A DNA stretch of 64,000 bases from Urbifossiella limnaea (GCF_007747215.1 NZ_CP036273.1:7114322-7178321); one strand, 5' to 3'. Shown: positions 20,534 through 40,974, numbered from the stretch's first letter. Made by a program: numbers and translations. The notes: generated by a model from the sequence alone, not told the origin.

Positions 20534-22079
20534 GCCCGCCCCGTTCACCGTCCTGGTGGTGGACGACGACCCGGACACCCGGGCCAACCTCCGCGACATC
20601 CTCGACCTCGACCGGTACCCGGTGGTCGAAGCCGCGTCGGTCGCCGACGCCCTGGCCCGCGACGACTGGAGCCGGTACGGGGCGGTGGTCCTCGACCGGC
20701 AACTCCCCGACGGGACCGCCGAGGACCTGCTCCCCCACCTCCGGCGGCTCGCCCCGGACGCGGCGGTCGTGATCGTCACCGGGTTCGACGACCTCCACGG
20801 GGCGGTGGCGGCGTTCCGCCTGGGGGCGGCCGACTACGTCCTCAAGCCGGTGAACGCGGACGAACTCCGCACCCGGTTCGGGCGGCTGGTCGAGGCCCGG
20901 CGGTACCGGGACGCGTTGCGGGAGAGCCAGGAGTTTGCCCGGGCCGTCCTCGACTCCCTCTCCGCACACATCGCCGTCCTCGACCGAGCCGGGGCGGTGG
21001 TGGCGGTGAACGCCGCCTGGGACGCGTTTGCCCGGGAGCGGCAGGGGGACCCGGACCGGTGCGGGGTCGGGGCCAACTACCTGGAGGTCTGCCGGCGGGC
21101 GTCCGGGCCGTTCGCGGAGGAGGCACCGGTCGTCGCGGCGGGCATCCGCGACGTCCTCGCCGGGGTCCTGCCCCGGTTCGTCCTCGAATACCCGTGCGAC
21201 TTCGTGGACCAGAAGATGTGGTTCGCGATGATCGTCACCCCACTCGGCCCCGACCGCCGGGGGGTCGTGGTGTCCCACCTGGACATCAGCGACCGGAAGC
21301 GGGCCGAGGAGGACCTGCGCGCGAAATCCGAGGAGCTCCGGGCCACGACCCAGCAGTTGTGGCAGGCGGCCCGGCTGGCCGGGGTCGGCGAACTCGCCGC
21401 CAGCCTGGCCCACGAGTTGAACAACCCGCTCGCCACCGTCCACCTTCGGGTCGAGGGGCTGCTGGCGAAAACGCCGCCGGGCGACCCCCGCCGGCGGCCG
21501 CTCGAGGTCGTGGACCAGGAGGTCACCCGGATGGCGGGTCTGGTGGGCAACCTGCTCGGGTTCAGCCGGGCCGGGCGGGACCAGGTTTCCACCGTGGACG
21601 TGTGCGAGGAGGTCACCCGGACGGCCGAGTTGGCCGCCCAACACCTGCGGAAGCGGCAGATCCGGTTCCAGCCCGAGTTCACCCCGGCGGGGCAGGTCAT
21701 TTACGCCGACCGGCAGCAACTCCGGCAGGTGTTCCTGAACCTGTTCACCAACGCCGCCGACGCCATGCCCTCCGGCGGCCGGCTGACCGTACGGGTCGCC
21801 CCCGGGACGCTGCCGGGCGGGCGGGCGGCCGTGGTTGTGGACGTGGCCGACACCGGGTCGGGCATCCCGCCGGAGCACCTAACCCGGGTGCTCGACCCGT
21901 TCTTCACGACGAAGGAGGAGGGGAAGGGGACCGGGCTGGGTCTGGCCATCTGCCGGCGGATCGTCGAGCAGCACAACGGCGCCCTGGAGATCGACAGCCG
22001 GGTCGGCGCGGGGACCACCGTCCGGGTCACCCTGCCGGTCCGCCCGGACACGAACGTGGCACCCCTCCGGCCCGCCTGA
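20526..22079 (+). CDS. Hybrid sensor kinase REC-PAS-HisKA-HATPase
   Basis: 517 residues from the ATG at 20526, with GGGGA ~6 nt upstream; an in-frame GTG at 20514 is less likely. REC (~6-120) has phospho-acceptor Asp57 (VVLDRQLPDG) and LKPVN. Residues ~135-258 are a PAS domain (LDSLSAHIAVLDRAGAVVAV to HLDISDRKRAEE). A short coiled coil leads to HisKA with His296 (LAHELNNPLA). HATPase runs ~385-505, with NLFTNAADAM, DTGSGIPP and GTGLGLAI. The N-terminal receiver should make kinase activity depend on phosphorylation from the upstream pair. Last gene of the overlapping phosphorelay; an IS3-type end begins 22 bp after it. Confidence 0.88.
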   Translation: MLEPAPFTVLVVDDDPDTRANLRDILDLDRYPVVEAASVADALARDDWSRYGAVVLDRQLPDGTAEDLLPHLRRLAPDAAVVIVTGFDDLHGAVAAFRLGAADYVLKPVNADELRTRFGRLVEARRYRDALRESQEFARAVLDSLSAHIAVLDRAGAVVAVNAAWDAFARERQGDPDRCGVGANYLEVCRRASGPFAEEAPVVAAGIRDVLAGVLPRFVLEYPCDFVDQKMWFAMIVTPLGPDRRGVVVSHLDISDRKRAEEDLRAKSEELRATTQQLWQAARLAGVGELAASLAHELNNPLATVHLRVEGLLAKTPPGDPRRRPLEVVDQEVTRMAGLVGNLLGFSRAGRDQVSTVDVCEEVTRTAELAAQHLRKRQIRFQPEFTPAGQVIYADRQQLRQVFLNLFTNAADAMPSGGRLTVRVAPGTLPGGRAAVVVDVADTGSGIPPEHLTRVLDPFFTTKEEGKGTGLGLAICRRIVEQHNGALEIDSRVGAGTTVRVTLPVRPDTNVAPLRPA

Positions 22080-22744: not shown

Positions 22745-25700
22745 CTAGCCACGTGGCCTGACTGAGGGCTTCGCGGCCTTGAAGTCCGGGTTGTGGAGCA
22801 GAGCCGCCGCCTCGAGCAGTAGCCACGCCGTGATCGCCACGACCCGCCAGTCCACCGGGCCGTGAACGGACTCGCCGGCCGCCTGGTCGTCGGGCTCGGC
22901 TGGCACTTCGCCCGGTCCGTCCGGCTCGCCCGGCGGCGGGGCGGGGGGGGAACTCGGTGGTGACGGATCCCCGGCGGGGGTGGTCGGCGGTGGCACGTCC
23001 GCGGGGAGCTTCTGGAGCGCGTCCAGCAACCGCTCCAGCAAGGTCGGGCCGTCGGGCGCCGCCTCACCGTCGGCGGCCGGCGGCCGGCCGGACCGCGCCG
23101 CCTCGACGAGCCGTTCCAGCACGTCGGCCGTCGCGTCCAGGAGTTCGTCCCGGGTCGGCGCGGCCGGCCGCGGGCCGTGAGACGGGTCGGGGTCGGGCTC
23201 GCCCGACAGGGTGGAGGCCACGGCGGCGATGAACGACTCGCCCTCGGACGCCAGCACCTCGTCGTCGGTCATCTCCCCGAGGCGTGAGAGGAACCCGGCG
23301 GGCAGGCCGGTGGCGGCCGCCGCGTCCAGCAGGCCGAACCCGGTCGCGGACGCGGCGCCCCGCCCGCCCCCGGCCGTCGAGATCGTCGTCACCAGGGTGG
23401 GGACGAGGGGCGAGGACGTGTCGACGGCGGTGAGGTCGCTGGTAATCTCGAACGTGATCGGGTCTCCGCCCGAGCCCGTCCGCACGGCGTACTCGAAGAT
23501 CGCGTCGTCCCCCGCGCTGGTGACCAGCACCTCCAGCACGGCGGACGCGAAGTCCACCACCGCGAGTCCGCTGGGAACCCCCGCGACCGCCCCGCGGGGG
23601 ACCAGGTCGGTGGATCCGCCGCCGGCCGTCGCGAGGACGACGCCGCCCCCGCTCCGGACCTCGATCACCCGGGAGAAGTCCACGGCCTGCACGAGCAGCA
23701 CGGGCTGGCCCGTCGAGACGACGGCCTGCGTCCCGGCCGTCGCGTTGAAGCGGATCACGTCCCCGCCGGCGGTGACCACGTACCCGGCCGGGAGGCCGGG
23801 GATGTAGCTCGGCGCCTGGGGGGCGAGCGCGGCGCCGAGGTCGAGCACGCGCGGGCTGCGGTCGTCGAAGAACCCCTGGCCGCGGCCGGGGAGGACGGTC
23901 ACCTTGCCGTCCCGGGTGGTGATCGCCAGGTCGCTCCCGCCGGGACTCGCGGGGTTTGCGACCAGGTCGGCGGAGAGCGGCCCGGCCCCGGCCGCCCGCA
24001 GCCGCGGCCCCGCCGTGCCGACCCACCGCCCGCCCGCCCCGTAGCTGCCGAACAGCACCGACACGTCGTTCGACCCGGCGTTGGCGACGAGCATGTCGGG
24101 GACGGCGTCGCCGTTGACGTCGGCGACGGTGACGTGAACCGGGTTGGTGCCGGTCGGGTAGCTCGCGGGGGCGGCGAAGGTGGGGGTGCCGTCCGCGGCC
24201 GGCGCGGTGGCGCGGTAGACGAGCACGCTGTTACTGCCGCTGGCGAGGACGACGGCGTCGGCCCGGGTGTCGCCCCGCGAGAGCGGGTACCACGTCACGT
24301 CGCCCGGCGCGAGCTGGGCGCCGGCGTCCTCCGCGGTCAGGGTGCCGACCGGGGTAAAGGTGCCGGCCCCCCGGGCCTGCACGGTGACCCGGTTCGTTTG
24401 CTGGTTGGCGACCAGGGCGACCGGCCCGCCGCCGCCCGTCTGGACGGCGATCGGGGCGCGGGTGCCGGTGACGGGCGGGGGCGGGGTGAACGTCCCGTCG
24501 CCGTTGCCGACGAGCCGGAGCACGTCCCCGGCCCCGTTGCCGACGAGCAGGTCGGGCGGTCCGCCGTCGGCGGCCGGCGCGAGGGACAGCCCGGTGGCCC
24601 CCGCCCCGACGGCGATCACCTGACCCCGCCGGAAGGTGCCGTCGCCGTTGTTGGCGAAGACCCACACCTCGCCGGCGTCGCGCATGAGCACCGCCACGTC
24701 GTCCACCGTCCCGCCGCGCGTGAACCGCCCCGCGACCGCGGCGCCGGCCTCGTCGTTGACGGCCCGGCCCAGGCTGGTTGAGGTGGTCAGCGCGGCGGTG
24801 GGGGCCGCGAACCCGCCGCGGCCGCTGCCGGCGAGGACGGAGAACGAGTGCTCGCCGCGGTTGACGACGAGCAGGTCCGGTCGGCCGTCGCCGGTGAACT
24901 CGCCCGAGGCGACCGCGACCGGCCGGGCGGCCGACGCGAACGTCGTCACCGGGGCGGTCACCTTCAGCACCGTGTTGACCAGGCGACCGGAGCCGTCGGG
25001 GAAGCGCACGGGCGCCGGCCCCTTGACCAGGATGTTCCCGTAGGCATCGACCGCCAGCCCCTTGATGCCGCCGAAGGTGTCGAACCGGCCGCCGAGGTCG
25101 AACACGGTGGTGATGACGCCGCCAACCGTGTCCACGACCCGGAGCAGGCTTTCCGAGTCCACGATGTAAAGGTCGGTACCGGACGCGGACAGCGCCAGGC
25201 CGCGGACGTAGCCGAGCTGGGCGTCGGTGGCCTGCCCGCCGTCGCCGAGGGTGCCGTACTGCCCGGTGCCGGCGACGGTGGTGTCCGCGCCGGTTACCAG
25301 GTTCACCCGGCGGACGGTCGGGCCGTCCGCGAAGTACAGGAACCCCTGGCGCGCGTCGACCACCACGGGAGTGGGGTAGCCGTCAAAGTCGCTGAGGTGT
25401 CCCCGGAGCCCGCGGAGGAAGCGGTTCTCGGCGATAGTGACGGCCGGGCCGTCGCCCTGGACTTTCCGGACCGTCCGGCCGTCGGCGACGTACACGGCGC
25501 CAGCCGAATCGACCGCGATGTAGTCCGCGTTCAGCCCGAAGTCCTGGGGGAGGCGGGCGACCGTGGTGATGGCCCCCGAGTCCACCCGGCGGATCACAGC
25601 GTCGGTGCGGTCGGAGATGTACAAAGGCGCTGGCTGGTAGGCGAAGAAACTATAACCGAGGGCGATGGCATCGACGGAGTTCAGCCGGGCGTCGGTCGCC

Positions 25701-28700
25701 GGTCCGCCGTCCCCGCTGTACCCGGGCGCCCCGGTGCCGGCGACGACGCTGATCACGCCGGTCCGCCCGTCCACCCGGTAAACCCGGTTCGGCTCCGCGA
25801 AGTAGACATCCGTTTGGTAGGTGCCGCCGGCGCCGAGCCCAAGCTGGTCAACCGCCCGGGGCGCCAGGGCGCCCGCGATCGTGGTCTGCACACCGCCGTC
25901 CGTCCGGACGATCAGGTTCTGGTCCGCGGTGTACGTCCGTCCGGCATCGTCCGTGGTCCGCGACCAGGGGCGGTCGGGGTCAGCCTCGGCGGGCGTGATG
26001 ATCCCGGTCGCGAGGTCCACCCGGCGGGTCGCGTCTTCCCGGGGCGCGTAGCCGAGCTGTTCGTTGATGAACAAGTACCCCCCGGCCACGGCCAGGCTGT
26101 TGACCGGGTACAGGGGGGCGGACGTGGCCGGGCCGCCGGCCGCCGACTTGTACAAGTCCCGGGAGGTGCCCAGCATCGGGTCCAGTCGGGCCCAGTTCCC
26201 GGCGACCGTGGTGACGAGCCCGGTCGCCGCGTCGACCCGGCGAACGACGCCAAGGAGGTTGTCGGCGAAGTACACGTTCCCCTGGCCGTCCACCGTCAGG
26301 GCGGAGACGTCATTCAGCGGGTTCTCGGTCGCCGGCCGGCCGTCGCCGACCCGCCTGACGCCCCCCACGACCGTCGAGACCGAAGACGACGTTCCGAAGT
26401 TGAGGGGGCTGAGCCCCCCGCGGACGCGGGTGCTCCAGGCGAACGAGTGGTCGGCGTCGTTGAAGAAGACGGTTACGTCGCCGCTCGCCTGGTCCGTGAC
26501 GGCGATGTCCGGCCGGCCGTCCCCGTTGAAGTCGGCGAACGCCACGTCCGACGGGGCTCCGCCGGATTTCCGGAAGATGCGGTTTCCTCCGTTGTACCTC
26601 CCCTCGCTACTCGGGAAGACGATCTCGATTCCGCTTCCGAGCGTATCGACGAGGATCAGCACGTCGGCCCGGCCGCTCCCGCTCAGGTCGGCTGCGAACA
26701 TCCGGGTCGCGACAACCCTGGTTAAGAAATACTCGGCGAGATGGAGTTGGCCGCCGGCGAGCGTGTACAGCGAGACTTCGTACGACTTAGTGAAATCGAC
26801 GAGAAATCTCGCCGCTCGACTGGCGGCGGCGACCACCCACCCGGTCGGGGTCTGCACCGCGACGGCGTCGCGGGCCGGGAGGCCGGGGTTCATGACGACC
26901 GGTGGGCCGAAGTCCGTCGAGCCGGGCCGCCCGGGGCGGTAGAGGAGGTTCCCGGCGGCGTCCACCACCACACTGTCGAGCACCGGCCGGCCCGCGGCGT
27001 CGGTCGCGCCGGATAAGTTGACCAGGAAGGGCGTGTTCGACCGCCCGCCGCCGCTCTGGTTGCTCGCCGCGGCGAACGTCCCGTCGCCCCGGCCGAGGAG
27101 GGTGGAGAGCGTCCCCTCCACCCCGTTGACGATTACCAGGTCCGGGTTCCAGTCGGCGTTCATGTCCCGGACGAGCACGGCCCGGGGGGAGAGCCCGACC
27201 GGCAGCGCCTGTGGGTCCTGGAACGACCCGCGGCCGTCAGCCAGCAGGACGGACACGGCGGCGGCCCGCCCGCCCGCCGCCACCAGGTCGGGCTTGCCGT
27301 CGCCGTTCAGGTCGGCCACCGCGACCGCGGCCGGGTCGTCCACGATCACCGACCGCTCGACCACGTCGAAGCTGCCGTTGCCCCCGTACCGGAGGATGCC
27401 GACCGAGTTGCCGGTGTTGTGCCGCACGACGACGTCCGGGGAGCCGTCGCCGTCGGCGTCGGCGATCGTCACCCCGTGTGGGACGAACCGAAGGCGGGTG
27501 ACGACCTCGGTGGCGAACGACCCGTCGCCGTAGCCGAACCGCACCCCGACCGTCCGCTCACGGCTGTTGACGGTCACCAGGTCCGGCCACCGGTCGCCGT
27601 TCAGATCGACGGCCGCCACGTCCACGAGGCCGGTTAGTGTGAGGTCCTCGGGCGCCAGCCCGGGCGCGGCCCCCGGGAGCCGCGCGGCCGGCCCGGCCCG
27701 CGTGTCGCGGAGGGTGCCGTCGGCGGCCCCCAGAAGCGTGACCACCGTGCCGTCCTCGTTGTTCACCACCACCGCGTCCGGGTTGCCGTCGCCGTTCACG
27801 TCGGTCAGCAGGAGGGCACACGGCCCGCGGCCGACCGGATAGGTCACCTGCGGGCGGAAGCTGCCGTCGCCGTTGCCGAACAGCACCCCGACGGTGTCGT
27901 CCCCGCGGTTCGCCACCACGAGGTCGGCCCGGCCGTCGCGGTTGAGGTCGGCGGTCGCCACCGCCAGCGGCCGCGCCCCGACCGGGAACGACGCCTGCGG
28001 GGAATACGTGCCGTCCCCGTTGCCGAGCCGCACGGCCACCGCCGGCTCGCGGGCCAAAGTGGTCACGACGTCGAGGAGGCCGTCGCCGTTGAAGTCCCCG
28101 ACCGCCAGTGCGACCGGCCCCCCGGCGACGGGCTCGGCGGTCGCGGGCCGGGTCCGGAACGTGCCGTCGCCGTTGCCCCGGAGCACGTCCAGGCCGGCGG
28201 CCGGGCCGTCGGTCACGCCGAGCATCTCGACGATCAGGTCCGGGATACCGTCCTGGTCCGCGTCGGCCACGGCCAGCCCGGCGTCCGACAGCCGCGGGAT
28301 CAGAATCGACTGCTGAGCTTGGAACCCGCCGCGGCCGTCGCCGAGGAGTGGGGTGACGGTGAACTCGCCGGCGGCGGCGAGGTCGGGCCGGCCGTCGCGG
28401 TTGAAGTCGGCGACCACCAGCCGGATCGGCCGGGCGGAAAGCGGCACCTCGGTCATCGGCCCGAACCGCCCGCCGCCGGTAGCCAGGAACACCCCGACCG
28501 ACTTGGCCGCGACGTTGCCGACCACCACGTCCGCCAGGCCGTCGCCGTTCACGTCGGCCACCGTCACCGCTCCCGGCCCACGGGCGTCGGCCAGGTCGGC
28601 GGCCCGCTGGAACGTCCCGTCGCCGCGGCCGAGCAGCACCGCGACCCCGCCGGGACCGGCGGTAATGTCCTGGATCCGGTTCGAGAAGGGAGCGCCGACG

Positions 28701-30835
28701 GCGGTCGTCGCCAGGATGTCCGGGATCCCGTCGCCGTTCAGGTCGGCCACCGCCACCGACCGCAGTTGTGGCAGGGGCTGGCTGTCCGCTAGATCGAACG
28801 GTGAGCCGATGGCGATCGACTCGCCCGGGCGGAAGCCCCCGTGCCCGTCGGCGAGGAGCACCCGGACGGCGTTGTAGGCCCCTTCGGCCACGACCACGTC
28901 GGCGGCGCCGTCGCCGTTCAGGTCGGCGATCGACACCGCGATCGGGGACGCGTACGGGTCGAGTTCGCCCGTCCACGCGTCGGGGCGGAGGGTGCCGTCG
29001 CCCTTGCCCGGGTAGACGAGGACGCCGGACTCGTTGGCGAGCACCAGGTCGGCCGCCCCGTCGCCGTCCAGGTCGCCGACCGCCAGCGCGGTCCAGCGGG
29101 TCTGAGTCGTTTCCTGCGAGAAGCTCGTGGTATGGGTGCCGTCCCCGTGCCCGAGGAGGATGCTGAATTTACCGGAGAGGGGGCCTTCGGGGCCGTGGAG
29201 AACGGCCAGGTCGGGGTAGCCGTCGTTGTTGAAGTCGCCCGACGCCACCGGCCCGAGGACGCCGTCCAACGGGGCGGTGTCGGTCGGCGGGCTCGTCGGT
29301 GTGAACGTGGTGGTGAGCCGGACGTCGTCCGGCCGGTCGACCCCGAGGGCGAGGAAGTAGACCCCGGGCCGGAGGTACTGCGAGAACGCCGCCGTGGCGC
29401 TGCCGGGCGGGCCTTCAGTCTGGTAGACGAGGGTGTCGCCCGTGGTGCCGGTGAAGAGGGACAGGACGGGGTGCGCGCCGGCCTTGGCGACGGCGGTTGC
29501 CGTGTACGTCCCGGCCTGCGTAACGGTGACCGGGATCTTCGGGAACACGTCGTCGAGGGGGGTGTCGGACCGCGAGTTGAGGGTGCCGGCGGAGAACGCC
29601 GCGTCGAGGTGGGACTCGTACAGCCGGCCGTGGTTCTCCGGGTCTTCCGGGGTCAAGGCGTCGACGTGGTGGACGGACAGAATGTAGGTGCCCGGGGGGA
29701 GGTACTGGCTGAGCGTCGCGGTCGGGTTGGCGGGCGTCCCGGTGACCACGACGCGGAGTTCCTGCCGGACGTCTACACCACTGAGTATTAGCTGGGGGAG
29801 CTCACCGGCCGGACCCAGTCGGGCGGTCGCCGTCAACAGCCCGGCCCCGACGGCCGGACTGATTGTAAACGAATAGCCCGCGCCCCCGCTCCGCTGGAAC
29901 TCTCCGTCCGCCGTGGCGCGGACCGAGGCGCCGGTCGGGCTCACGATCGTGAGCGACTCCCAGCTCGCCCCGCGGTGCCCGAAGTGGTCGCCCGGCGCGG
30001 CGGGAGTGATTCGAAGTCCGAGGTAGATCGGTCCGTTCGCCAGTCGGCCGAGGTCTGGGAAGAGGTCCGGGTATCCGTCGGCCGGGGCCGACGCGAACGC
30101 CGGGAGTGTGGCCGGAAGGGTGATCGCGAGGTCGGCCAGGGACCACTCGCCCCCGGCGGCGAGTCCGGGTACGGCGATCGGGGCCGGTAGCAGCGGTGTC
30201 GTGGTCGCGGGGTCGAACCCGGGGCTGGTCGAAGCGACCACCTGCACGGTGAACGCCCCGGCCGCCACCCCGCCGCGGTTGTTGACGCTGAAGGAGGCGT
30301 GGACCGTCTCGCCCCACACGGCCGCCGCCTCCGCCAGCCGGAACGACGACCCGACGACGTCCGCCGCGAGCGGTTGTCCCTTCCGCACCGCGAGGGCGAG
30401 GGTGTACGTACCGGTCGTGGCGCCGGGGGTGCCGCTCCGGCTGGCGGTCGGGTTGTAGTCCGCGTTCCCGGCGGACGACACCCCGACGATGTAGCTGCCG
30501 CCCGCCGCGGCCTGCACCGTCAGCGCCGGGTCGCCCCCCTCCTGGTTGTTCAGCGCCACCTCGTTGCCGGCGGCGTCGAACACGCGCAACAGGGGCCGGA
30601 GGCCGCTCCCGGCGAGTTGGGCGCTGACGGCCGCGCGGAGGGTGTCGCCCCGGCCGAGTTCGACCCGGTACAGGTCGTGCTGGTCCGGCGCCGCCAGGTA
30701 GCCGCCCACGTTCGCGGTGTCGAGCGGCCCGAGCGCCAGCACCTCGGCCGACGCGAGGGTGTGGGCGGCCGGCGGCAGCCGCCCTTCGAGCAGCTCCACG
30801 AGGAGTACGGTCCGGCGGTCGGCGTGGCGGGTCAT
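22745..30835 (-). CDS. Giant FG-GAP/NHL propeller surface protein with C-terminal hydrophobic tail
   Basis: 2,696 residues from the ATG at 30835, where the signature VELLEGRLPPAAHTL follows a basic start. Residues ~30-150 resemble a bacterial pre-peptidase C-terminal beta domain and ~160-290 a CARDB-like domain. FG-GAP/VCBS blades fill ~520-1,480 (D-x-N-G-D-G-x-x-D repeated). NHL-type propeller repeats follow at ~1,490-1,930 (VDGQGNVYFADN, VRRVD, TTVAGTG), then more FG-GAP blades to ~2,400. The end has an acidic/Pro-rich stalk, a hydrophobic helix (WRVVAITAWLLLEAAALL) and a basic tail, like a membrane or sorting anchor. It lacks the GV[FY]VG ending of other exported proteins here. It starts 29 bp after the CHAT-STAND gene, so it probably shares that transcript. 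Probably surface-displayed; ligand unknown. Confidence 0.85.
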   Translation of the reverse strand: MTRHADRRTVLLVELLEGRLPPAAHTLASAEVLALGPLDTANVGGYLAAPDQHDLYRVELGRGDTLRAAVSAQLAGSGLRPLLRVFDAAGNEVALNNQEGGDPALTVQAAAGGSYIVGVSSAGNADYNPTASRSGTPGATTGTYTLALAVRKGQPLAADVVGSSFRLAEAAAVWGETVHASFSVNNRGGVAAGAFTVQVVASTSPGFDPATTTPLLPAPIAVPGLAAGGEWSLADLAITLPATLPAFASAPADGYPDLFPDLGRLANGPIYLGLRITPAAPGDHFGHRGASWESLTIVSPTGASVRATADGEFQRSGGAGYSFTISPAVGAGLLTATARLGPAGELPQLILSGVDVRQELRVVVTGTPANPTATLSQYLPPGTYILSVHHVDALTPEDPENHGRLYESHLDAAFSAGTLNSRSDTPLDDVFPKIPVTVTQAGTYTATAVAKAGAHPVLSLFTGTTGDTLVYQTEGPPGSATAAFSQYLRPGVYFLALGVDRPDDVRLTTTFTPTSPPTDTAPLDGVLGPVASGDFNNDGYPDLAVLHGPEGPLSGKFSILLGHGDGTHTTSFSQETTQTRWTALAVGDLDGDGAADLVLANESGVLVYPGKGDGTLRPDAWTGELDPYASPIAVSIADLNGDGAADVVVAEGAYNAVRVLLADGHGGFRPGESIAIGSPFDLADSQPLPQLRSVAVADLNGDGIPDILATTAVGAPFSNRIQDITAGPGGVAVLLGRGDGTFQRAADLADARGPGAVTVADVNGDGLADVVVGNVAAKSVGVFLATGGGRFGPMTEVPLSARPIRLVVADFNRDGRPDLAAAGEFTVTPLLGDGRGGFQAQQSILIPRLSDAGLAVADADQDGIPDLIVEMLGVTDGPAAGLDVLRGNGDGTFRTRPATAEPVAGGPVALAVGDFNGDGLLDVVTTLAREPAVAVRLGNGDGTYSPQASFPVGARPLAVATADLNRDGRADLVVANRGDDTVGVLFGNGDGSFRPQVTYPVGRGPCALLLTDVNGDGNPDAVVVNNEDGTVVTLLGAADGTLRDTRAGPAARLPGAAPGLAPEDLTLTGLVDVAAVDLNGDRWPDLVTVNSRERTVGVRFGYGDGSFATEVVTRLRFVPHGVTIADADGDGSPDVVVRHNTGNSVGILRYGGNGSFDVVERSVIVDDPAAVAVADLNGDGKPDLVAAGGRAAAVSVLLADGRGSFQDPQALPVGLSPRAVLVRDMNADWNPDLVIVNGVEGTLSTLLGRGDGTFAAASNQSGGGRSNTPFLVNLSGATDAAGRPVLDSVVVDAAGNLLYRPGRPGSTDFGPPVVMNPGLPARDAVAVQTPTGWVVAAASRAARFLVDFTKSYEVSLYTLAGGQLHLAEYFLTRVVATRMFAADLSGSGRADVLILVDTLGSGIEIVFPSSEGRYNGGNRIFRKSGGAPSDVAFADFNGDGRPDIAVTDQASGDVTVFFNDADHSFAWSTRVRGGLSPLNFGTSSSVSTVVGGVRRVGDGRPATENPLNDVSALTVDGQGNVYFADNLLGVVRRVDAATGLVTTVAGNWARLDPMLGTSRDLYKSAAGGPATSAPLYPVNSLAVAGGYLFINEQLGYAPREDATRRVDLATGIITPAEADPDRPWSRTTDDAGRTYTADQNLIVRTDGGVQTTIAGALAPRAVDQLGLGAGGTYQTDVYFAEPNRVYRVDGRTGVISVVAGTGAPGYSGDGGPATDARLNSVDAIALGYSFFAYQPAPLYISDRTDAVIRRVDSGAITTVARLPQDFGLNADYIAVDSAGAVYVADGRTVRKVQGDGPAVTIAENRFLRGLRGHLSDFDGYPTPVVVDARQGFLYFADGPTVRRVNLVTGADTTVAGTGQYGTLGDGGQATDAQLGYVRGLALSASGTDLYIVDSESLLRVVDTVGGVITTVFDLGGRFDTFGGIKGLAVDAYGNILVKGPAPVRFPDGSGRLVNTVLKVTAPVTTFASAARPVAVASGEFTGDGRPDLLVVNRGEHSFSVLAGSGRGGFAAPTAALTTSTSLGRAVNDEAGAAVAGRFTRGGTVDDVAVLMRDAGEVWVFANNGDGTFRRGQVIAVGAGATGLSLAPAADGGPPDLLVGNGAGDVLRLVGNGDGTFTPPPPVTGTRAPIAVQTGGGGPVALVANQQTNRVTVQARGAGTFTPVGTLTAEDAGAQLAPGDVTWYPLSRGDTRADAVVLASGSNSVLVYRATAPAADGTPTFAAPASYPTGTNPVHVTVADVNGDAVPDMLVANAGSNDVSVLFGSYGAGGRWVGTAGPRLRAAGAGPLSADLVANPASPGGSDLAITTRDGKVTVLPGRGQGFFDDRSPRVLDLGAALAPQAPSYIPGLPAGYVVTAGGDVIRFNATAGTQAVVSTGQPVLLVQAVDFSRVIEVRSGGGVVLATAGGGSTDLVPRGAVAGVPSGLAVVDFASAVLEVLVTSAGDDAIFEYAVRTGSGGDPITFEITSDLTAVDTSSPLVPTLVTTISTAGGGRGAASATGFGLLDAAAATGLPAGFLSRLGEMTDDEVLASEGESFIAAVASTLSGEPDPDPSHGPRPAAPTRDELLDATADVLERLVEAARSGRPPAADGEAAPDGPTLLERLLDALQKLPADVPPPTTPAGDPSPPSSPPAPPPGEPDGPGEVPAEPDDQAAGESVHGPVDWRVVAITAWLLLEAAALLHNPDFKAAKPSVRPRG

Positions 30836-30864
30836 GGTGCGTCTGCGGTCGGTTCCCACGCGGG

Positions 30865-33800
30865 CTAGGGGCTCCTCGCCCCGATTTCGGTTGCCAGCTC
30901 GGCCAGCGGGTCGCTGGCGCTGAGGCGGACCAGGGCCGTGTCGGCCAGCACGAAGTCCTGCCAGAACTTCGCCCGCCCGGCCGGCTCCACGTCCGCGAGC
31001 GCCGCGCGGAGCAGGGCGGCGACACGGGCGACGCGGCGGGGGGCGTCGTCCGTGTTCGGGTCGCCGAGGACGACCAGGGCGACGACCCGGGCCGCGGTGT
31101 ACCGCTGGCGCTTTCGCTCCGGCTGGTCGGTGGACGCCGCCGCCTGCCGTGCGGCGGCCTCGGCGTCGGCCAGCGCCTCCGGGAACTGCCCGGTGCGCAC
31201 CCGGGCCTCGGCCCGCCCGAGCAGCGCGTCGGGGTAGGTCCGGCCGTCCTTGAGGGCCTCGTCGAAGTCGGCGACGGCGAGCCCCGTGGCCCCGGTAGCG
31301 AGGTACGCGCCGCCGCGGAGGGTCAGCACCTCCGGGTCGGCAGGGGCGTACACGAGCGCCCGGGTGAAGCTCTCGATCGCCCCCCGGTGGTCCTTCTTCG
31401 TGGCCAGGATCACGCCGCGGGTGGTGAGGGCGGAGGCGAGCCGGTCGGCCTGAGTCCGGGAGAGGGCGGTCCCCTCCGGGGCCGGCGTCAGCGACAGGTA
31501 CAGGTCGATGGCCACGACCGCCCCGTCGTACTGCCGGCCGGCGAGGAGCGCGTCGGCCGAGTGGCGTGCCGCCAGCGCCCGCTTCTCGCGGGTGAGCGCC
31601 GTGTCGGGGAGCCGGAGCACGATGCCGTACACGTCCGACGCGTGCTTGAACTGGCGCGCCTGGTGCTTCAACCGGGCGAACGCCATCAGGTCGTCGGCCA
31701 GGGTCGAGGCCCGCCCCAGGTTCGGCGCGAGCTGGACCGCGAGGAGCAAGTCCTTCCCGGCGGCGGCGGCGCCGCCGCGGAGGAGGTGGACGTGGACCCG
31801 CTCGTGGTAGAGCCGCGCCACCCGGGGTTGCAGGTCGATCGCCTTGTCGAGGACGTCCGCGGCGGCGTCCAGCGCGGCGTGGCGGTGCCCGGCGGCGGCC
31901 GCCGCGAACCCGACCGTCCCGCCCGGGGCCAGCTCCCACGCGACCGCCGGCAGGGGCAACTCCTCCGCCCGGTGGCTGTGCGTCAGGGCGAGGTTGATGC
32001 GGGCCGGCAGGGCGTCCGGGCGGAGGGCGACTGCCGCCGTCAGGTCGGCGACCGCGGCGTCCCAGTTGCGCTGCTTGTACGCCAGCACGCCGCGGTTGGT
32101 GCGGGCGGCGTAGAGCACCGCGTCGTCCCCCGCGCCCCTTTCGATCGCCTCCTTCAGGGTGGCCTCGGCCTTCGTGTACTCGCCCAGCTCCACCTCGGCC
32201 GACGCCCGGTAGACGAGCGGCCAGAGGAAGTCGGAGCGCAGCCCGAGGCACCGGTCCAGCGCCAGCTTCGCGTCCTGGGGGCGCTTGTCCTGCAGGAAGC
32301 AGACGGCGAGCAAGAACTGCGCCCCGTAGTGTTCGGGCTCGGCCCGCAGCGCCTCGCCCAGCGCCGGGATCGCCCGGGTGTACTCCTCCGTGCGGTGGTG
32401 TTCGAGCCCGATCAGGTAGTAGTCGGCGGCGAGGACCGGGGGCGTCGCGTCGGCGGCCGTCCGCGCCGCCTCCGCCGCCGCCTTCTCGCCCAGCCCGGTG
32501 TGGTACTCGGCGCGCCGCGTGAGGCCGACCCGCGTCCGCGTGCCGGGGGGGAGGAGCAGGTCGGCCCGGTCGAGCATCCGGAGGGCGTTCCGAACTTTCT
32601 CCTTCCGCTCCCCGGTCGTCTCACCGGGGGTCGGTGCGGCCAGGGCCACCGCGTGGGCGTCGATGAGGAGGAGCTCGTAGCAGCGGTACGCCGCCAGCCG
32701 CTCCTCGTCGGACGTGAAGTACCCGGGGGCGAGCCCCGGCGGGCCGCTGCCGGCGAGCTCGACGCCGACCTCCTTCAGCCCGGCGGCCGCCGCGGCGCGG
32801 ACGAGGCCGTGGGTCTCCGCCTCCGCGAGGCCGGCGGCGCGGGTGTTGAAGAAGACGGCGTCGCGGTGGTGCTTCCCGAGGCGGGTGAGCTTCATCCGCT
32901 CCGCCTCCCGCCGGTCCTTGTCGGCGCGGGCGGCGTCGGCCCGGGCGAGGAGCTGGTCGGCGGACGGCTTCAGCGGCCAGTCGGCGAACGCCGCCGGGTC
33001 GGCCTTCGCCAGCGCGTCGGCGGCGCGGAGGTCGGCGGCGACGGCGTCCCACGGGACCGCGGCGGCGGGGGTGGCGGTCACGGTCTGCTCGGCCTTCGCG
33101 AACAGGGCGGCGAACTGCGCCCGCGCCTTCTCGTGGCGCTCGGCCTCGGCGAGCCTGGTCCGTGCGAGTTCCGTCTCCTTCCGAGCGGCCTGCGCCTGAA
33201 GCGCGAACACGGTGGCGGCCACGACGACGACGGCCGCCGCCACGGCGGCAACCTTCCGCACCTGCGCCCAGCGCCGCTGCTCCTCCTGCCACCGGGCCGC
33301 CACCTTCGCCAGCGCGTCGTGCCCGAGGCTCACGTACCGCTGCTCTTCCTCGTCCCCGCCGATCCGCAGGCTGTTCACCCGCACGAGCCGGCGGTCGCCG
33401 TCGCCGGCCGTCCGCAGCACCTCCTCGAACGGCATCCGCCCGCGCCAGTGCTGGGCCAGGAAGGCCGCCGGCAGCAGTGCCGTGGTGAGCGTGCCGTCGG
33501 CCTGCCGGATGAACAGCTGGGTGCGCGGGTCGGCGAGGAGCCGCTTGAACGCCCGCTGGTCGGCGCGGTGGGGGAAGAGGTGCCCGACCAGCGCCTCGGC
33601 GTGCGCCCGCATCCCGCCCTCGACGCCGCCGATCGCATTCAGGTCGGCGGCGGTGACGGCCTTGTCGGCGCGGGCGCACACCCGGTCGTAGAGCTGCGTG
33701 CACACCACCTGTACCAGCGGCAGCACGCTGTCGGTGCGGTTGATCGAGTACGCCCGGGTCCGCCGCGCGATGTCCTCGGCCACGCCGTCGGCGAAGCGGA

Positions 33801-35793
33801 AGCCGTACTTCTCGGCCGGGATTTCCGCCGCGTGCTCGACCGGCGTCGGCGACGTGGGCCGCCGGATCACCTCGGTCAGCGCCTCGTGCCCGAAGTCGGT
33901 GAGCAGGTAGTCGCGGACGCCGGCCGCGGGGTGCGTCCCCTTCCGCAGCCTGTCGGTGAGCCGGCCGTGGTACTCGGTCCGCAGCGACACCACCACCTTG
34001 AACCCGCCCGGCGCCCCGGCCGCGCGGCGGAGCATCTCCAGCGCTTGCGTGCGGTTCGCCTCGTCGGCCGGCGTGCGCGCGAGGGTGAACACCTCCTCCG
34101 CCTGGTCGATCACCAGCACCGGCGTGAACGGCAGGACGCGGCCCAGGTCGGCGAGAATCCGGCCGAGCAACCCGGGGTCGGCGCGGAGCGCGTCGCGGAG
34201 GGCGTCGCGCCCCGTCCGCTCACCCACGGCCGCGCGGAGGACCCCGGGTAGGTCGGCGGCCGCCGCCGCGCCGGCCGGCGTGCGGTGGGCGAGCGGGGCG
34301 GCGCAGAACGTGGTCAGCGCCGCGGCGATCTGCGCCACCGGGTCGTTCGTCGCCCGCACCAGCAGCACCGTGTCGCCGTCGCCGTGCGAGCGGTCCCGCG
34401 CGAACCGGTAGCCGACGCACTCGCGCTCCAGGAACGGCACCACCCCGGCGCGCAGGAACGAGGTCTTCCCGACGCCGCTCTCGCCGTGGAGGATCACCAG
34501 CCGCGTGCCGGGCTCGTCGAGCAGCTGCGCGAACCGGAGGGTGTCGTCGTCGCGGCCGGCGAACAGGGCGCGGTCGGCCGGGCCGTAGGATTGCAGCGAC
34601 CGGTACGGCTGCGGCGGCAGCGGGTGCGTATCGGCGTGGGCGCGCGTGGGGTCGCGCCGGAGCTTCGTGCCCACGGCGGCCTGCGTGAGTACGATCGGCG
34701 CGGCGTCGGCCGGCGCACGAGGCTCGCGCCGGACGTGGACCGCGGACGGGCAGTACGACCCGTACAGGAGGCCGAGCGGCACCTGGCCGCGGAGCTGGCG
34801 CATCACCTTCCCGAGCGGCTCGCCGCGGACCGCGAACGCCGTCAGGAACTCGCGCCCGAGCGGCGCCGCGAACGTGTCCACCGTCACCTGCTCGGTGGCG
34901 ACGTACCCGGTAAGCCCGAGCGGGTGGAGGGCGTCGAGGAACGAGCCCGACTTCTCCGCGACCGCCGTCCCGCAGGCGTTCAGGAACGCCACCCCGCCGA
35001 ACACGCTGCCGGCGTCGGCGAACGGGTCGCCCTCCAGCATCGTCTTCAGGTCGTCGGGCGTGACGGCGTCGTCGCCGAGGACGAGGCCGAACGGGTCGGC
35101 CTGGGTGTGCCCGAGCCAGTAGAGGAGGTCGGGGCGGCCGGCCTGGAGGGCGTCGGCGAGCTCCTGTCGGGTGCGGGCCTGCACCCAGCCGTGCTCCTGG
35201 CACAGCGCCGCCAACTCGCGCGATTCCGTCGGGAGTCGGTCGAGCACGAGCGGGTCGGTGACGACGACGACGCGCGGGTTGTGGAGCACCGGCAGCCGCC
35301 GCAGCGGGCTGACGCGGCGGCCGCCGGACAGGTCGTAGCGGAGCCCCCAGAACGGCCGCCACCGGGCCGGGTCGTCGCCGCCGGCCTTGAACGCGGCGGG
35401 GTCGGGGCGGCGGTCGTAGACGAGGTTCCACGGCACCGCGGGGCCGCCCTCGGCGACGACTTCCAGCCCCTCGACGGCCCCCTCGGCCTGGAGCGTGTCG
35501 AGCCACTTGCGGACCTCGGACGCGAGCGCCATCTGCTCGGCCGGCGGCTTGAACAGCGCCTGGTACAGGCCGTAGCCCGCCGCCGCGAGCGCGGCCGCCG
35601 CCGCGGGGCCGTCGCCGCCGTCGTCGGTGAACGAGCCCTCGACGACCGCCCCGAGCGCCGCGCGCGCCGCGTCCGCGGCCGCGGCGAGGGGCCGCGCCGG
35701 GAGCTCGTACGGGGCGAACGCGGCGGGCCCGTCGGACCACGTCACGCTCACCCCGGCCGGGGTCGGCTGCACGACACACGCGAGGCGGGCCAT
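30865..35793 (-). CDS. CHAT protease-nSTAND ATPase-TPR protein
   Basis: 1,642 residues from the ATG at 35793 (GGAGG 6 nt upstream). Residues ~60-355 hold a CHAT caspase-like domain with His229 (YWLGHT) and Cys274 (FLNACGTA). Residues ~408-840 are a novel-STAND NTPase: FAGRDDDTLRF entry, Walker A GESGVGKT (437-444), Walker B VLVIDQAEE (559-567) and the late SLGHDALAKVAARW motif. A hydrophobic segment (~847-866) is a likely membrane anchor. A helical stretch and many TPR units follow to the C-terminus (for example ~1,130-1,200 and ~1,440-1,550). By family logic the TPRs sense a ligand or partner, the STAND module oligomerises on ATP and the CHAT protease is switched on. Third gene of a four-gene operon. 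Confidence 0.9.
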   Translation of the reverse strand: MARLACVVQPTPAGVSVTWSDGPAAFAPYELPARPLAAAADAARAALGAVVEGSFTDDGGDGPAAAAALAAAGYGLYQALFKPPAEQMALASEVRKWLDTLQAEGAVEGLEVVAEGGPAVPWNLVYDRRPDPAAFKAGGDDPARWRPFWGLRYDLSGGRRVSPLRRLPVLHNPRVVVVTDPLVLDRLPTESRELAALCQEHGWVQARTRQELADALQAGRPDLLYWLGHTQADPFGLVLGDDAVTPDDLKTMLEGDPFADAGSVFGGVAFLNACGTAVAEKSGSFLDALHPLGLTGYVATEQVTVDTFAAPLGREFLTAFAVRGEPLGKVMRQLRGQVPLGLLYGSYCPSAVHVRREPRAPADAAPIVLTQAAVGTKLRRDPTRAHADTHPLPPQPYRSLQSYGPADRALFAGRDDDTLRFAQLLDEPGTRLVILHGESGVGKTSFLRAGVVPFLERECVGYRFARDRSHGDGDTVLLVRATNDPVAQIAAALTTFCAAPLAHRTPAGAAAAADLPGVLRAAVGERTGRDALRDALRADPGLLGRILADLGRVLPFTPVLVIDQAEEVFTLARTPADEANRTQALEMLRRAAGAPGGFKVVVSLRTEYHGRLTDRLRKGTHPAAGVRDYLLTDFGHEALTEVIRRPTSPTPVEHAAEIPAEKYGFRFADGVAEDIARRTRAYSINRTDSVLPLVQVVCTQLYDRVCARADKAVTAADLNAIGGVEGGMRAHAEALVGHLFPHRADQRAFKRLLADPRTQLFIRQADGTLTTALLPAAFLAQHWRGRMPFEEVLRTAGDGDRRLVRVNSLRIGGDEEEQRYVSLGHDALAKVAARWQEEQRRWAQVRKVAAVAAAVVVVAATVFALQAQAARKETELARTRLAEAERHEKARAQFAALFAKAEQTVTATPAAAVPWDAVAADLRAADALAKADPAAFADWPLKPSADQLLARADAARADKDRREAERMKLTRLGKHHRDAVFFNTRAAGLAEAETHGLVRAAAAAGLKEVGVELAGSGPPGLAPGYFTSDEERLAAYRCYELLLIDAHAVALAAPTPGETTGERKEKVRNALRMLDRADLLLPPGTRTRVGLTRRAEYHTGLGEKAAAEAARTAADATPPVLAADYYLIGLEHHRTEEYTRAIPALGEALRAEPEHYGAQFLLAVCFLQDKRPQDAKLALDRCLGLRSDFLWPLVYRASAEVELGEYTKAEATLKEAIERGAGDDAVLYAARTNRGVLAYKQRNWDAAVADLTAAVALRPDALPARINLALTHSHRAEELPLPAVAWELAPGGTVGFAAAAAGHRHAALDAAADVLDKAIDLQPRVARLYHERVHVHLLRGGAAAAGKDLLLAVQLAPNLGRASTLADDLMAFARLKHQARQFKHASDVYGIVLRLPDTALTREKRALAARHSADALLAGRQYDGAVVAIDLYLSLTPAPEGTALSRTQADRLASALTTRGVILATKKDHRGAIESFTRALVYAPADPEVLTLRGGAYLATGATGLAVADFDEALKDGRTYPDALLGRAEARVRTGQFPEALADAEAAARQAAASTDQPERKRQRYTAARVVALVVLGDPNTDDAPRRVARVAALLRAALADVEPAGRAKFWQDFVLADTALVRLSASDPLAELATEIGARSP

Positions 35794-35804
35794 CACACCT
35801 CCGA

Positions 35805-37214
35805 TCAAGCTCCGTCCTTGCGGACCCGAACGGCCGGGTCGCCGAGGACGACGTAGGACTGCGCGTCGTTCCGCTCGACCCACGCCTGGGCGAGCTTCGG
35901 GTCGGCCGCCGACCGGGCGCCGGGCGCGGTCGGGTCGAGGCGGTTCAGCAACTCCGCCGAGTAGGTGGCGAAGCGCTGGCTGAAGTCGATCGTCCCCTGG
36001 CCCACGGGGTCGCCGCGGAGGACGCGGGCGAGCATGTTGCGGAACGGCTGGATCTGCGCCCCCGCCCCCTTCGCCTCCAGCGAGTACCCCCACGCGCGGT
36101 CGATGTGCCCCACCACGGCGAGCGCCCCCGCGGCCAGGAGCCGCTGCCCGAGCGCCGACACGAACGGCGCCTCGGCCACCTCGACGGGGCCGCCGGCGGG
36201 GGCCGTCAGGAACGGGTCGTAGCGCGGCGTGCCGGCGCCGTAGCACGCGAACACGACGGCGATCGTGCCGTCGAGCCGCGTGTCCGGGCCGAGGTCGGCG
36301 GCGGCGAGGTAGTGGTCCGCGGAAACGGCGCCGTACCCCGGCCAGTCCTGGCACAGCAGTGCCCCGCTGGCCGGCCGCTGGCGCGGGTCGCCCTTCGGCC
36401 AGCCGCCCATCCCGTGCGACGCGGTGAACAGCAGCGCCGGCCGGGCGTCGAGCGCGGCCCGCAGGTTCGCCTTCGTGGCGTCGGCCGCGCGGAACGAGCG
36501 GGTGCGGAACCCGTACTTCTCCGCGACGGTCGGGTCGGTCGTGCCCGCCCCGGCGAGCGGGGCGATGAGCTTGTCGGCGCTCAGTTGCGTGGCGCGGTCC
36601 ATCGGGTGCCGGGTGCCCCAGTACACGACCTCGCGGGCGGGCGGGGCGGCCTCGGCGGTCTCGCTGGCCACCACCGCCGCGGCGTAGCGCCCGTAGTCGG
36701 CGGGGTCGTCGAACGACACGCGGCCGACGGCGTAGTCGATGTCGAGGAGGTACTGGAACTCGAACGGGATCTGCTCGGGCGTGCCGACGAGCAGGAGGTA
36801 GTACGGCACGGCCGCGGGGTTCACGTCCGAGCCGTGGACCTTGTGCCGCGCCAGCCACGCCTCGCGGGTTTCGCCGGGCAGCAGTTCCAGGGCGCGGAAC
36901 AGCGGCCCGGCCTGCCCCGCGCGGCGGTCGAGGAGCGGCTTCAGCGCGGCCCGAACGTCCTCCGGCGTCTCCTTGGCGAAGACGACGCCCCAGCCGGCCT
37001 GCGCCAGGTCGGTCGGGTCCACGTCCGCCGGGAGGCCGAAGAACTTGCCGGTGAGCTTCTTCGCCAGCCGCCGCAGCCAGCCGGCGCGCTCGGCCGTGGG
37101 CGCGGCCCCGCCGGCGGCGCGGCGGCCGGCTTCTTCCACGGTCAGCGGCGCGACCAGGTACTCGCCGGTCAGGGCGTTGATGCCGTTCAGGCAGATGGTG
37201 TCGTCGTCGGGCAC
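35805..37214 (-). CDS. Caspase/C25-like cysteine peptidase
   Basis: 469 residues from a GTG at 37214, three bases after the previous stop, with GGAG ~9 nt upstream. There is no signal peptide. The core has a His-Gly motif, LLFTASHGMGGW (His267), and a later strand ending VVFACYGAG (Cys324). This is the His...Cys dyad order of clan CD peptidases (caspase, gingipain/C25, CHAT), with a VVGHIDRAWGYS segment after it. Residues ~130-160 (VPYYLLLVGTPEQIPFEFQY) resemble the region preceding the catalytic core in C25-like enzymes. Substrate unknown. It may be the zymogen cut by, or an activator of, the CHAT-STAND protein 11 bp downstream. Clan assignment is from motif order. Confidence 0.75.
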   Translation of the reverse strand: MPDDDTICLNGINALTGEYLVAPLTVEEAGRRAAGGAAPTAERAGWLRRLAKKLTGKFFGLPADVDPTDLAQAGWGVVFAKETPEDVRAALKPLLDRRAGQAGPLFRALELLPGETREAWLARHKVHGSDVNPAAVPYYLLLVGTPEQIPFEFQYLLDIDYAVGRVSFDDPADYGRYAAAVVASETAEAAPPAREVVYWGTRHPMDRATQLSADKLIAPLAGAGTTDPTVAEKYGFRTRSFRAADATKANLRAALDARPALLFTASHGMGGWPKGDPRQRPASGALLCQDWPGYGAVSADHYLAAADLGPDTRLDGTIAVVFACYGAGTPRYDPFLTAPAGGPVEVAEAPFVSALGQRLLAAGALAVVGHIDRAWGYSLEAKGAGAQIQPFRNMLARVLRGDPVGQGTIDFSQRFATYSAELLNRLDPTAPGARSAADPKLAQAWVERNDAQSYVVLGDPAVRVRKDGA

Positions 37215-37217
37215 GGG

Positions 37218-38429
37218 TCACTCCATCGGCCAGACGCCGCGGGCGCGGAGGTCGGCGACGCGGTGGAGGCGGACGTCGTCGGGGGCGAACTCGCGCGCCT
37301 CCTCGTACTGGCGCTGGCCCGACCGGCAGGCGGCGTCGAAGTCGGCGGCCCCGACCATCGTGGTTTCGAGGAACTGCCAGTCCCCGGCGCCGTCGTCCGA
37401 CTCCCACCCGACGAGGGCGTGGCCCGGGATCAGCAGCAGCGCCGGGCTCAGCGACGCGCCCTCGATCAGGCTCGCGAACAGGACCGCGCCGTCGAGGCAG
37501 TTGGCGCTCTTCCGCGCCAGCGACTCACGCGGCAGCCGCGCCCGCTGCGTCACGCTGTCGGCCGGCGCCCCGTAGTCGGTGACGGCGTTGATGTAAGCGA
37601 GCCCCGCCTCTTGTAGCGACCGGTACAGCGCCGCCACCTGCTCGCGCACGCGGTCCGGCCCGCCGTGGATGTAGCCGGCGAGCATCCCCGCCGGGTGGAG
37701 CGCGGCGGCCCGGCGGACGCGCTCCTGCACCGCGTCGTCGTGCGGCGTCACCCACGCCCCGTAGTAGCGGGTCAGGTCCTTCGCCTCGCCCGTCGCCGCG
37801 TCGCGGACCGCGTTGAACCCGCACGTCCGCGCCAGCAGTACGAGCGGGAACGTGTCGTGGCACTCGGGCCGGCCGTCGAGGTCGTCCACGCGCAGGTGCA
37901 GCGTCGCCCGCTGGGCCGTCGTGACCCGGCTCACCCGTTCCGGGAAGAGGAGCGGCAGCAACTTGAGGACGGTCGGCTCCTTCACCCCGCGCCTGAGCTC
38001 GATCGTGCGCACGGCCTCCGCGGACAGCCCCTCGACCCACGCCCGGACGCACACCCGCTTGCTCTTGGCGTCGAGCGAGACGTTGGTGACGGCGACCGTC
38101 AGGAGCGGGTCGGTGTCCGGGTCGAGGAGGGGGTAGATCGCGGTCGGGACGGGGTTCAGGTTCAGCGTCGGCTCGACCTTCAGGCCGGTGGTCTCGGGGC
38201 CGAGGAGCCGGCCGACCGGCGGGCGGGGCGGGGGCGGGGCCACGGGCAGGGGTGCGAGTGGCACGTCCGCCGCCGCCCCGCGGAGGGCGGATTGCACGCG
38301 GGCGAGTTCGGCGCGGAGACCGGCGTCGGCGCTGGGGTCGGTCTGGGTGTAGACGGCGGCCTGCAACCGGTGGAGTTGGCGTGCGAGAGTGACCCGGGTG
38401 GGGGGGCCGTCGGGCGTCGGGTCGGGCAT
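37218..38429 (-). CDS. Transglutaminase-like cysteine-protease-fold protein
   Basis: 403 residues, no signal peptide. The N-terminal ~80 residues are helical with a proline-rich linker; ~85-200 look beta-rich. The C-terminal half carries a transglutaminase-like core: Cys311 at the start of a helix (SANCLDGAVLFASLIE), His337 (IPGHALVGWE) and a possible third residue Glu355 (WQFLETT). Members act as proteases, amidases or cross-linkers on protein substrates. First gene of a four-gene transcript: its stop is three bases before the GTG of the caspase-like gene. A TTGACA-containing candidate promoter lies ~100-130 bp upstream. A role as activator, maturase or substrate-modifier for the neighbouring proteases is inference. 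Confidence 0.75.
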   Translation of the reverse strand: MPDPTPDGPPTRVTLARQLHRLQAAVYTQTDPSADAGLRAELARVQSALRGAAADVPLAPLPVAPPPPRPPVGRLLGPETTGLKVEPTLNLNPVPTAIYPLLDPDTDPLLTVAVTNVSLDAKSKRVCVRAWVEGLSAEAVRTIELRRGVKEPTVLKLLPLLFPERVSRVTTAQRATLHLRVDDLDGRPECHDTFPLVLLARTCGFNAVRDAATGEAKDLTRYYGAWVTPHDDAVQERVRRAAALHPAGMLAGYIHGGPDRVREQVAALYRSLQEAGLAYINAVTDYGAPADSVTQRARLPRESLARKSANCLDGAVLFASLIEGASLSPALLLIPGHALVGWESDDGAGDWQFLETTMVGAADFDAACRSGQRQYEEAREFAPDDVRLHRVADLRARGVWPME

Positions 38430-38793: not shown

Positions 38794-39360
38794 TCACGGT
38801 CGAGCGGGGCCGGCGCCGGTGAGGGGGACGGTGTAGAGGTACAGCGACCGGCCGACGCCGTCGTCGGCCGAGGCGACCCGGACCACCCGGTCCGGCCGCA
38901 CCCCGGGGATCGGGAAGGAGTGCGACACCACCCGCGCCCCCGCCTTCATCCCGTGCAGCCGCGGGACCAGTTTGGCGTTGAGGGTCGCCCCGACGTACAG
39001 GGTCACCACCGTCACCCCGGTCAGGTCGGCCGTCAGCAGGTCGGCCTCCACGACCCGGACCAGCTTCCCCACGCCGGCCGCCTCGACCGCCGCGCGGGCC
39101 TTCTTCACGTACTCCGGGTCGAGCTCGTACCCGACCGCCTTGCAGCCGTAACGATTCGCCGCGGCGACCAGGATCCGGCCGTCGCCGCACCCGAGGTCGG
39201 CGACCACGTCGTCCCTCGTCACCGCCGCCAGTTCCAACATCTTCGTCACCACGTCGCGCGGGGTCGGGGCGAACACCACCGCCGGCCGCGGGCGCGGCGG
39301 CGGATCGGGGTCGGCGGCGGCGAGGGGCAGCAGGGCGATCAGGGCGACCAGGCGTGGCAC
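38794..39360 (-). CDS. SAM-dependent methyltransferase with signal peptide
   Basis: 188 residues from a GTG at 39360, chosen because GAGG lies ~8 nt upstream and the product then begins with a signal-like hydrophobic stretch (LVALIALLPLAAADP). A class I SAM fold follows, with motif I VADLGCGDGR (53-62), acidic motif II GYELDPEYV, and EADLLTAD, then a strand VVTLYVGATLN. Methyltransferases are normally cytosolic where SAM is available, so an apparent export signal is odd. It may be a membrane anchor rather than a cleaved peptide. It starts 8 bases after the PQQ-propeller gene stop and is probably co-translated with it. Substrate unknown. Confidence 0.75.
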   Translation of the reverse strand: MPRLVALIALLPLAAADPDPPPRPRPAVVFAPTPRDVVTKMLELAAVTRDDVVADLGCGDGRILVAAANRYGCKAVGYELDPEYVKKARAAVEAAGVGKLVRVVEADLLTADLTGVTVVTLYVGATLNAKLVPRLHGMKAGARVVSHSFPIPGVRPDRVVRVASADDGVGRSLYLYTVPLTGAGPARP

Positions 39361-39368
39361 GGGCCGCC

Positions 39369-40937: not shown

Positions 40938-40974
40938 GGCTCGGCCCTCGGTGGGGTGCGCTGCGGCGCGGAGG

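Follow-up and report, generated by a model that had tools for sequence, protein, structure and literature searches.

What do four tightly packed genes in the planctomycete Urbifossiella limnaea do together, and do they belong to a single conserved unit? The stretch of DNA analysed here (the window, 64,000 nucleotides) comes from a 7.8 Mb, single-contig genome that belongs by kinship to the Gemmataceae. The four genes all lie on the minus strand and are separated by 3, 11 and 29 nt, exactly as the earlier note on this DNA had placed them. They encode a transglutaminase-like protein (G1), a caspase-like (C25-like) protein (G2), a CHAT-nSTAND-TPR protein (G3) and a giant protein (G4), with the following features:

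37218..38429, minus strand: G1, transglutaminase-like thiol enzyme assigned by fold match, 403 aa; C311, H337 and candidate third residue E355
35805..37214, minus strand: G2, gingipain-fold (C25-like, clan CD) cysteine protease, 469 aa; GTG start, H267/C324
30865..35793, minus strand: G3, apparently chimeric CHAT-nSTAND1-TM-TPR protein, 1642 aa
34744..35526, minus strand: G3 CHAT-like domain, residues ~90-350; H229/C274
33256..34608, minus strand: G3 nSTAND1 NTPase, residues 396-846; Pfam PF20703, E 4.8e-41; Walker A at 437, Walker B at ~559
33196..33252, minus strand: G3 predicted transmembrane (TM) helix, residues 848-866; hydropathy 2.43; domain-swap breakpoint here or just after
30868..33153, minus strand: G3 TPR region, residues 881-1642; common to kinase-TM-TPR proteins
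22745..30835, minus strand: G4, giant FG-GAP/NHL protein, 2696 aa; Pfam FG-GAP_3, 2.8e-115; N-terminal LLEGRLPPA motif

Each of the catalytic residues that had been named for G1 (C311/H337), G2 (H267/C324) and G3 (H229/C274) is present, as are the Walker motifs of G3 (GESGVGKT at 437, VLVIDQAEE near 559). The DNA is ~75% GC, a composition at which a sigma-70 promoter scan was uninformative. In our analysis the four genes are two joined cassettes: cassette A, which comprises G1, G2 and G3 up to about residue 860, and cassette B, made of the TPR half of G3 and G4.

G1 consists of N-terminal helices, a beta-sandwich (~83-198) and a transglutaminase (TGase)-like core (~210-400) that matches PNGase, Rad4 and TGase2/3 at middling scores (Z 8.6-9.7). 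Cys311 begins helix 311-324, His337 begins strand 337-343, and both residues are kept in at least 90% of 16 sequences. By fold, G1 is transglutaminase-like, with the Cys and His of a TGase/PNGase core. A Pfam search of G1 gave no match, and a hydropathy scan revealed no signal peptide or N-terminal TM segment. Residues 166-345 match positions 69-238 of the NCBIfam model 'anti-phage protein ProA' (NF058533; E 6e-22, 77 bits, 180 residues). This model spans 1903 positions and has a cut-off of 1500 bits, whereas G1 has 403 aa and reaches 77 bits, which falls short of a full-length ProA; the common core is a lead rather than proof of an antiphage role. A search of the open-access literature found no paper on ProA.

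An AlphaFold2 model of G2, built on 53 relatives (pLDDT 91.5), matched the gingipains RgpB (Z 25.8) and Kgp (Z 23.8) over more than 300 residues in a fold search, with Csx29/TPR-CHAT and separase as the next-best matches (Z ~14-16). H267 and C324 are invariant across the 53 relatives, down to 38% identity, so that G2 has both the gingipain catalytic-domain fold and its conserved His/Cys dyad. Relatives of G2 score 27-38 bits against Pfam PF01364 (Peptidase_C25; cut-off 23), which the window G2 itself does not pass, giving only a weak CHAT match; a sequence profile search of the PDB with G2 found no match, though the fold search matched gingipains. Known gingipains are exported, and gingipain-like proteases are known as secreted virulence factors. 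In G2, the hydropathy scan found no signal peptide, hydrophobic N-terminus or TM segment, and it therefore looks like an intracellular gingipain-fold protease. The missing export signal counts against a secreted gingipain-like enzyme, not against the gingipain fold. G2 is like RgpB and Kgp (C25) in fold and dyad, but differs in sequence (~15% identity), in having no signal peptide and in its genomic partners, which are CHAT/STAND genes.

The nSTAND1 assignment of G3 follows from the profile match (E 4.8e-41) together with Walker A and B. Pfam makes no CHAT call in G3, whose CHAT-like domain is divergent; the tentative assignment therefore rests on an hhalign comparison with the profiles of genuine CHAT domains (P 2.6e-5, probability 75%, catalytic region aligned) and on the H..C dyad, which the closest relatives also have. 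The dyad is kept in G3 and at loci L192, L193, L194 (two copies) and L202, and these dyad-bearing relatives carry WD40 repeats where G3 has TPR. Ten other Gemmataceae genomes contain stand-alone CHAT-nSTAND-WD40 relatives of G3; the dyad is absent in 10/10, and no G1- or G2-type neighbour was found beside these genes. The tree splits the dyad-bearing from the dyad-less set, the latter clade with 97/99 support, which fits one loss of the CHAT dyad, confined to the stand-alone clade. These stand-alone proteins were considered as the nearest kin of G3 and rejected, as closer, dyad-bearing relatives occur in another family. L193 has no G1-type neighbour, but adjoins an ordinary transglutaminase-core gene; this could be chance, as such genes may be common. 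In 7/10 of the dyad-less loci (L116-L118, L120, L123-L125) the CHAT-nSTAND-WD40 gene is divergently paired with a gene of ~640 aa, which was DUF362/DUF6895 in the copy tested.

In L192, from a different planctomycete family, CHAT-nSTAND-WD40, G1-type and C25-like genes lie in a row on the same strand, with 47%, 58% and 53% identity, respectively, to the window proteins. All three enzymes also occur within ~12 kb in L202, from that other family as well, and pairs are found in L025 (G1-type with C25-like) and L194 (G1-type a few bases from CHAT-nSTAND-WD40). This co-occurrence points to a conserved three-enzyme module with permuted gene order, and bears out the proposal of the earlier note that the three enzymes work as a system. 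Full-length relatives of G1 are rare: L204 and L205 hold damaged copies, and L203 is cut by a contig end. The broader proposal of a conserved unit of all four genes is not supported, as no G4 relative was found at the other annotated loci with G1- or G2-type genes, including the three-gene core of L192 and L202. A single conserved four-gene operon was rejected because G4 homologues, searched for in genomes with the first 500 residues of G4, adjoin kinase-TPR genes.

Residues 1-846 of G3 align to CHAT-nSTAND relatives, and residues 837-1640 to a kinase-TM-TPR protein from the same genus, in its C-terminal half (L159; 47% identity over 821 aligned columns). The partner changes somewhere in residues ~840-880, where the TM helix 848-866 is predicted, and a hydrophobic helix is seen by hydropathy at the same place in 3/3 tested CHAT-nSTAND proteins and also in the kinases. 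Judged by its sequence, G3 is a chimera in which the kinase half of cassette B was replaced by CHAT-nSTAND, with the breakpoint at the TM helix; both the TM segment and the chimeric nature are additions to the first description of this locus. In the sister genome (L159), 34 nt separate the kinase-TPR gene from the G4 orthologue downstream. In the nine other annotated Gemmataceae loci with this TPR region (L159, L162, L175-L181), a kinase makes up the upstream part in 9/9, and the gene that follows encodes a large protein whose N-terminus is of LExR type, with FG-GAP in 6/9. Eight of the nine N-termini pass a simple pattern and the ninth (LENRLPPA) was judged by eye to fit, compared with 2/56 other genes in the same stretches. 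The domain swap at the TM helix and these nine loci together tie the TPR region to G4. We found no published description of this two-gene cassette of a kinase-TM-TPR protein and a giant surface protein. Since the class sample yielded no second genome with a fused G3, there is a small chance that this single chimera is an assembly error; against this, that genome is one contig.

The G2-type gene alone is far more widespread, with more than 100 relatives in at least four phyla; these usually adjoin CHAT/nSTAND genes, together with partners that can replace one another. When GTDB genomes were scanned with a degenerate pattern, 115 G2 relatives came up, of which 80 were kept; they belong to Chloroflexota, Cyanobacteria, Acidobacteria, Planctomycetota and others, and many of the bacteria that carry them, Nostoc for example, are multicellular or complex. 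Presence is patchy (5/95 family genomes), and three further relatives, annotated as C25 family peptidases near CHAT-domain genes, are on plasmids, one of them conjugative. Neighbouring genes were called with a per-locus codon model and then searched with profiles; many assemblies are fragmented, and loci L146, L148 and L150 were not reliably annotated by the codon model. At 1-2 genes from the C25-like gene, CHAT accounts for 15.4% of genes, nSTAND for 13.6% and alpha/beta-hydrolase for 9.7%, compared with 0.7%, 0.3% and 0.3%, respectively, at five or more genes. Lipoxygenase is likewise concentrated 1-2 genes from the protease and nearly absent at five genes or beyond. CHAT or nSTAND lies within four genes of the C25-like gene in 34/41 loci with full flanks.

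The alpha/beta-hydrolase partner has HGWxGD and GHSFG motifs (27 sequences), and the lipoxygenase keeps its histidine ligand motif and C-terminal isoleucine (valine in one) in 7/8 checked, that of L089 being without the iron-ligand pattern as written. Further partners are SIR2 and, at single loci, TIR, an animal-type haem peroxidase or a PLD domain. In the Gemmataceae relatives of G2, including a second copy in the same genome (L013), the order is lipoxygenase, C25-like, CHAT-nSTAND-WD40. The partner label changes 25 times on the G2 tree, against 44.5 in shuffles and a minimum of 8; the excess over this minimum indicates that partners have been exchanged among G2 relatives. Such exchangeable partners (lipoxygenase with iron ligands, TIR, SIR2, haem peroxidase, PLD) are typical of conflict systems. 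Two further features of these loci were observed. The alpha/beta-hydrolase and the C25-like protease form one polypeptide in L093 (8435-12607) and L100. In many Chloroflexota loci (L033-L102, e.g. L077 11926-13221), the C25-like gene is directly followed by two small families of ~270 and ~110 aa that have no Pfam match and resemble the C-terminal extension of the C25-like protease.

How might the four proteins act? We lean, with no more than moderate confidence, towards a membrane-anchored, STAND-gated protease alarm of the conflict or cell-suicide type with a rewired sensor. The domains, catalytic residues, three-gene module, chimera and two donor cassettes on which this model builds are read from sequence. 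It is further favoured by the enrichment of CHAT and nSTAND around C25-like genes, the exchangeable partners, the CHAT dyad kept in the clade of G3 but lost in stand-alone relatives, the ProA match of G1 and the plasmid carriage of C25-like loci; the lack of a PADLOC match, surroundings that are no clear defence island, the divergence of the CHAT domain and the occurrence of the chimera in a single genome count against it. According to the model, whose topology is predicted from the hydropathy scan, G3 would sit in the membrane with CHAT-nSTAND in the cytosol, one TM helix, and the TPR repeats outside the cytosol, where they could monitor the state of G4, or a phage or neighbour touching G4. 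A signal from outside would lead to ATP-dependent clustering of nSTAND, which would switch CHAT on; CHAT would then cleave, and thereby activate, cytosolic G2 and/or G1, and these would act on cell proteins so that the cell is stopped or killed. The order of this cascade is taken from general STAND/caspase logic. The conflict-system reading of the earlier note is consistent with such logic, while the direction it gave, from CHAT to the caspase-like protein, is one that we, too, can only infer. For the cut of the giant protein G4 by CHAT, which the note also proposed, the analysis yielded no support.

An alternative is that G1 and G2 work at the cell surface, where they would process or cross-link G4 and proteins related to it; G3 would regulate this, and there would be no role in defence or death. 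The position of G4 only 29 nt downstream of G3, the joint inheritance of G4 and the TPR region, and the export of known gingipains would fit such surface-protein maturation. We consider it distinctly unlikely, however, since G1 and G2 have no signal peptide or N-terminal TM segment, the L192 and L202 core does without a G4 relative, the partners of G2 relatives are lipoxygenase, hydrolase, TIR or SIR2, and the G4 family is usually found with a kinase rather than with the G1/G2 enzymes. Somewhat more plausible, but still unlikely, is a dedicated intracellular antiphage system, in which cytosolic repeats of G3 bind a phage product directly and neither G4 nor the hydrophobic segment plays a part. 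Phage sensing is known for STAND proteins, and the relatedness of G1 to ProA, the C25-like loci on plasmids and the WD40 repeats that replace TPR in dyad-bearing relatives all agree with this; the hydrophobic helix that recurs at the same place in all three tested CHAT-nSTAND proteins as well as the kinases, and the sharing of the window TPR region with kinases paired with a surface protein, speak against it.

Partner exchange, patchy presence, broken copies and plasmid carriage argue, in turn, against a receptor protease that triggers regulated proteolysis in development or stress, e.g. in cell differentiation, rather than in defence. Although the donor cassette is a kinase receptor and many carriers, such as Nostoc, are multicellular or complex, we regard this signalling role as very unlikely.

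Beyond the window, the membrane-anchored protease alarm may be one instance of a widely distributed, previously undescribed immune-type system, an idea that we offer tentatively, as possible rather than probable. Here, an intracellular gingipain-fold protease would be gated by a TM CHAT-nSTAND receptor, with alpha/beta-hydrolase, lipoxygenase, haem peroxidase, phospholipase, SIR2, TIR or transglutaminase-like outputs, and its input would be rewired by a receptor-half swap at the TM helix with kinases that watch giant surface proteins.

Among described systems, the NTP-dependent conflict systems of multicellular bacteria (Kaur et al. 2020, PMC7159879), which include caspase and alpha/beta-hydrolase pairs and a membrane-associated caspase two-gene system, are similar to the window locus and its relatives in having a caspase-superfamily peptidase, an alpha/beta-hydrolase neighbour, STAND NTPases, exchangeable effectors, rarely transglutaminase-like peptidases, and planctomycete and cyanobacterial hosts. 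They differ in that no MoxR or vWA gene lies near the window operon (none in the flanking genes at 18600-22079 and 38794-48853, which sets it apart from the MoxR-vWA (VMAP) ternary systems) and in that the constant part here is a gingipain-fold protease; nor are MoxR/vWA among the commonest families near C25-like genes. The main text of that paper does not mention CHAT, C25 or lipoxygenase. The TPR-CHAT protein of Craspase/Csx29 (PMC9729208, PMC10028731) resembles G3 in combining a CHAT protease with TPR, and the fold of G2 is close to that of Csx29 (Z ~14-16), but G3 adds an nSTAND NTPase and a predicted TM helix and has its TPR C-terminal to CHAT, and no CRISPR or gRAMP/Cas7-11 was found among the annotated flanking genes. 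Nuclease-protease pairs (PMC12799240) likewise involve a protease-activated partner enzyme exchanged between immune systems; there, however, a trypsin-like protease acts with a nuclease, and the text is without C25, CHAT or transglutaminase. PADLOC, including its Avs/AVAST models, gave no match for any of the four proteins, and the open-access literature on CHAT with C25, lipoxygenase or transglutaminase-like defence held no matching system, in agreement with the earlier remark that the operon matches no named system.

If this interpretation is true, gingipain-like proteases have a large intracellular branch that operates with CHAT and STAND in Chloroflexota, Cyanobacteria, Acidobacteria and Planctomycetota. 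Bacterial lipoxygenases, which are puzzling, would gain a role that can be tested, through the recurrent link of these proteases with lipoxygenase and lipid hydrolase. G3 would be a clear example from nature of a receptor in which a protease output has taken the place of a kinase output, with the donor cassettes of both halves known, and the swap of sensor halves hints at how bacteria rewire such alarms. CHAT-active and CHAT-dead relatives form a matched set that makes function directly testable.

The vicinity of the operon is no clear defence island. Some 17 kb away (55780-60307, plus strand), the window contains another conflict-type gene, for a TIR-CHAT-GNAT protein of 1080 aa (TIR_2 2.5e-22, CHAT 4.5e-28), followed by a methyltransferase gene. 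ARAGORN called a tRNA-Arg at 8590-8679 (minus strand) within a coding gene, probably a false positive. Five large proteins of the window (2-6700, 8157-10433, 10461-12791, 12929-15256 and 49412-55078) end in a C-terminal G-V-F/Y-V-G, a possible sorting signal of planctomycete surface proteins; G4 is without this end, and several of the five carry the N-terminal LExR-type motif.
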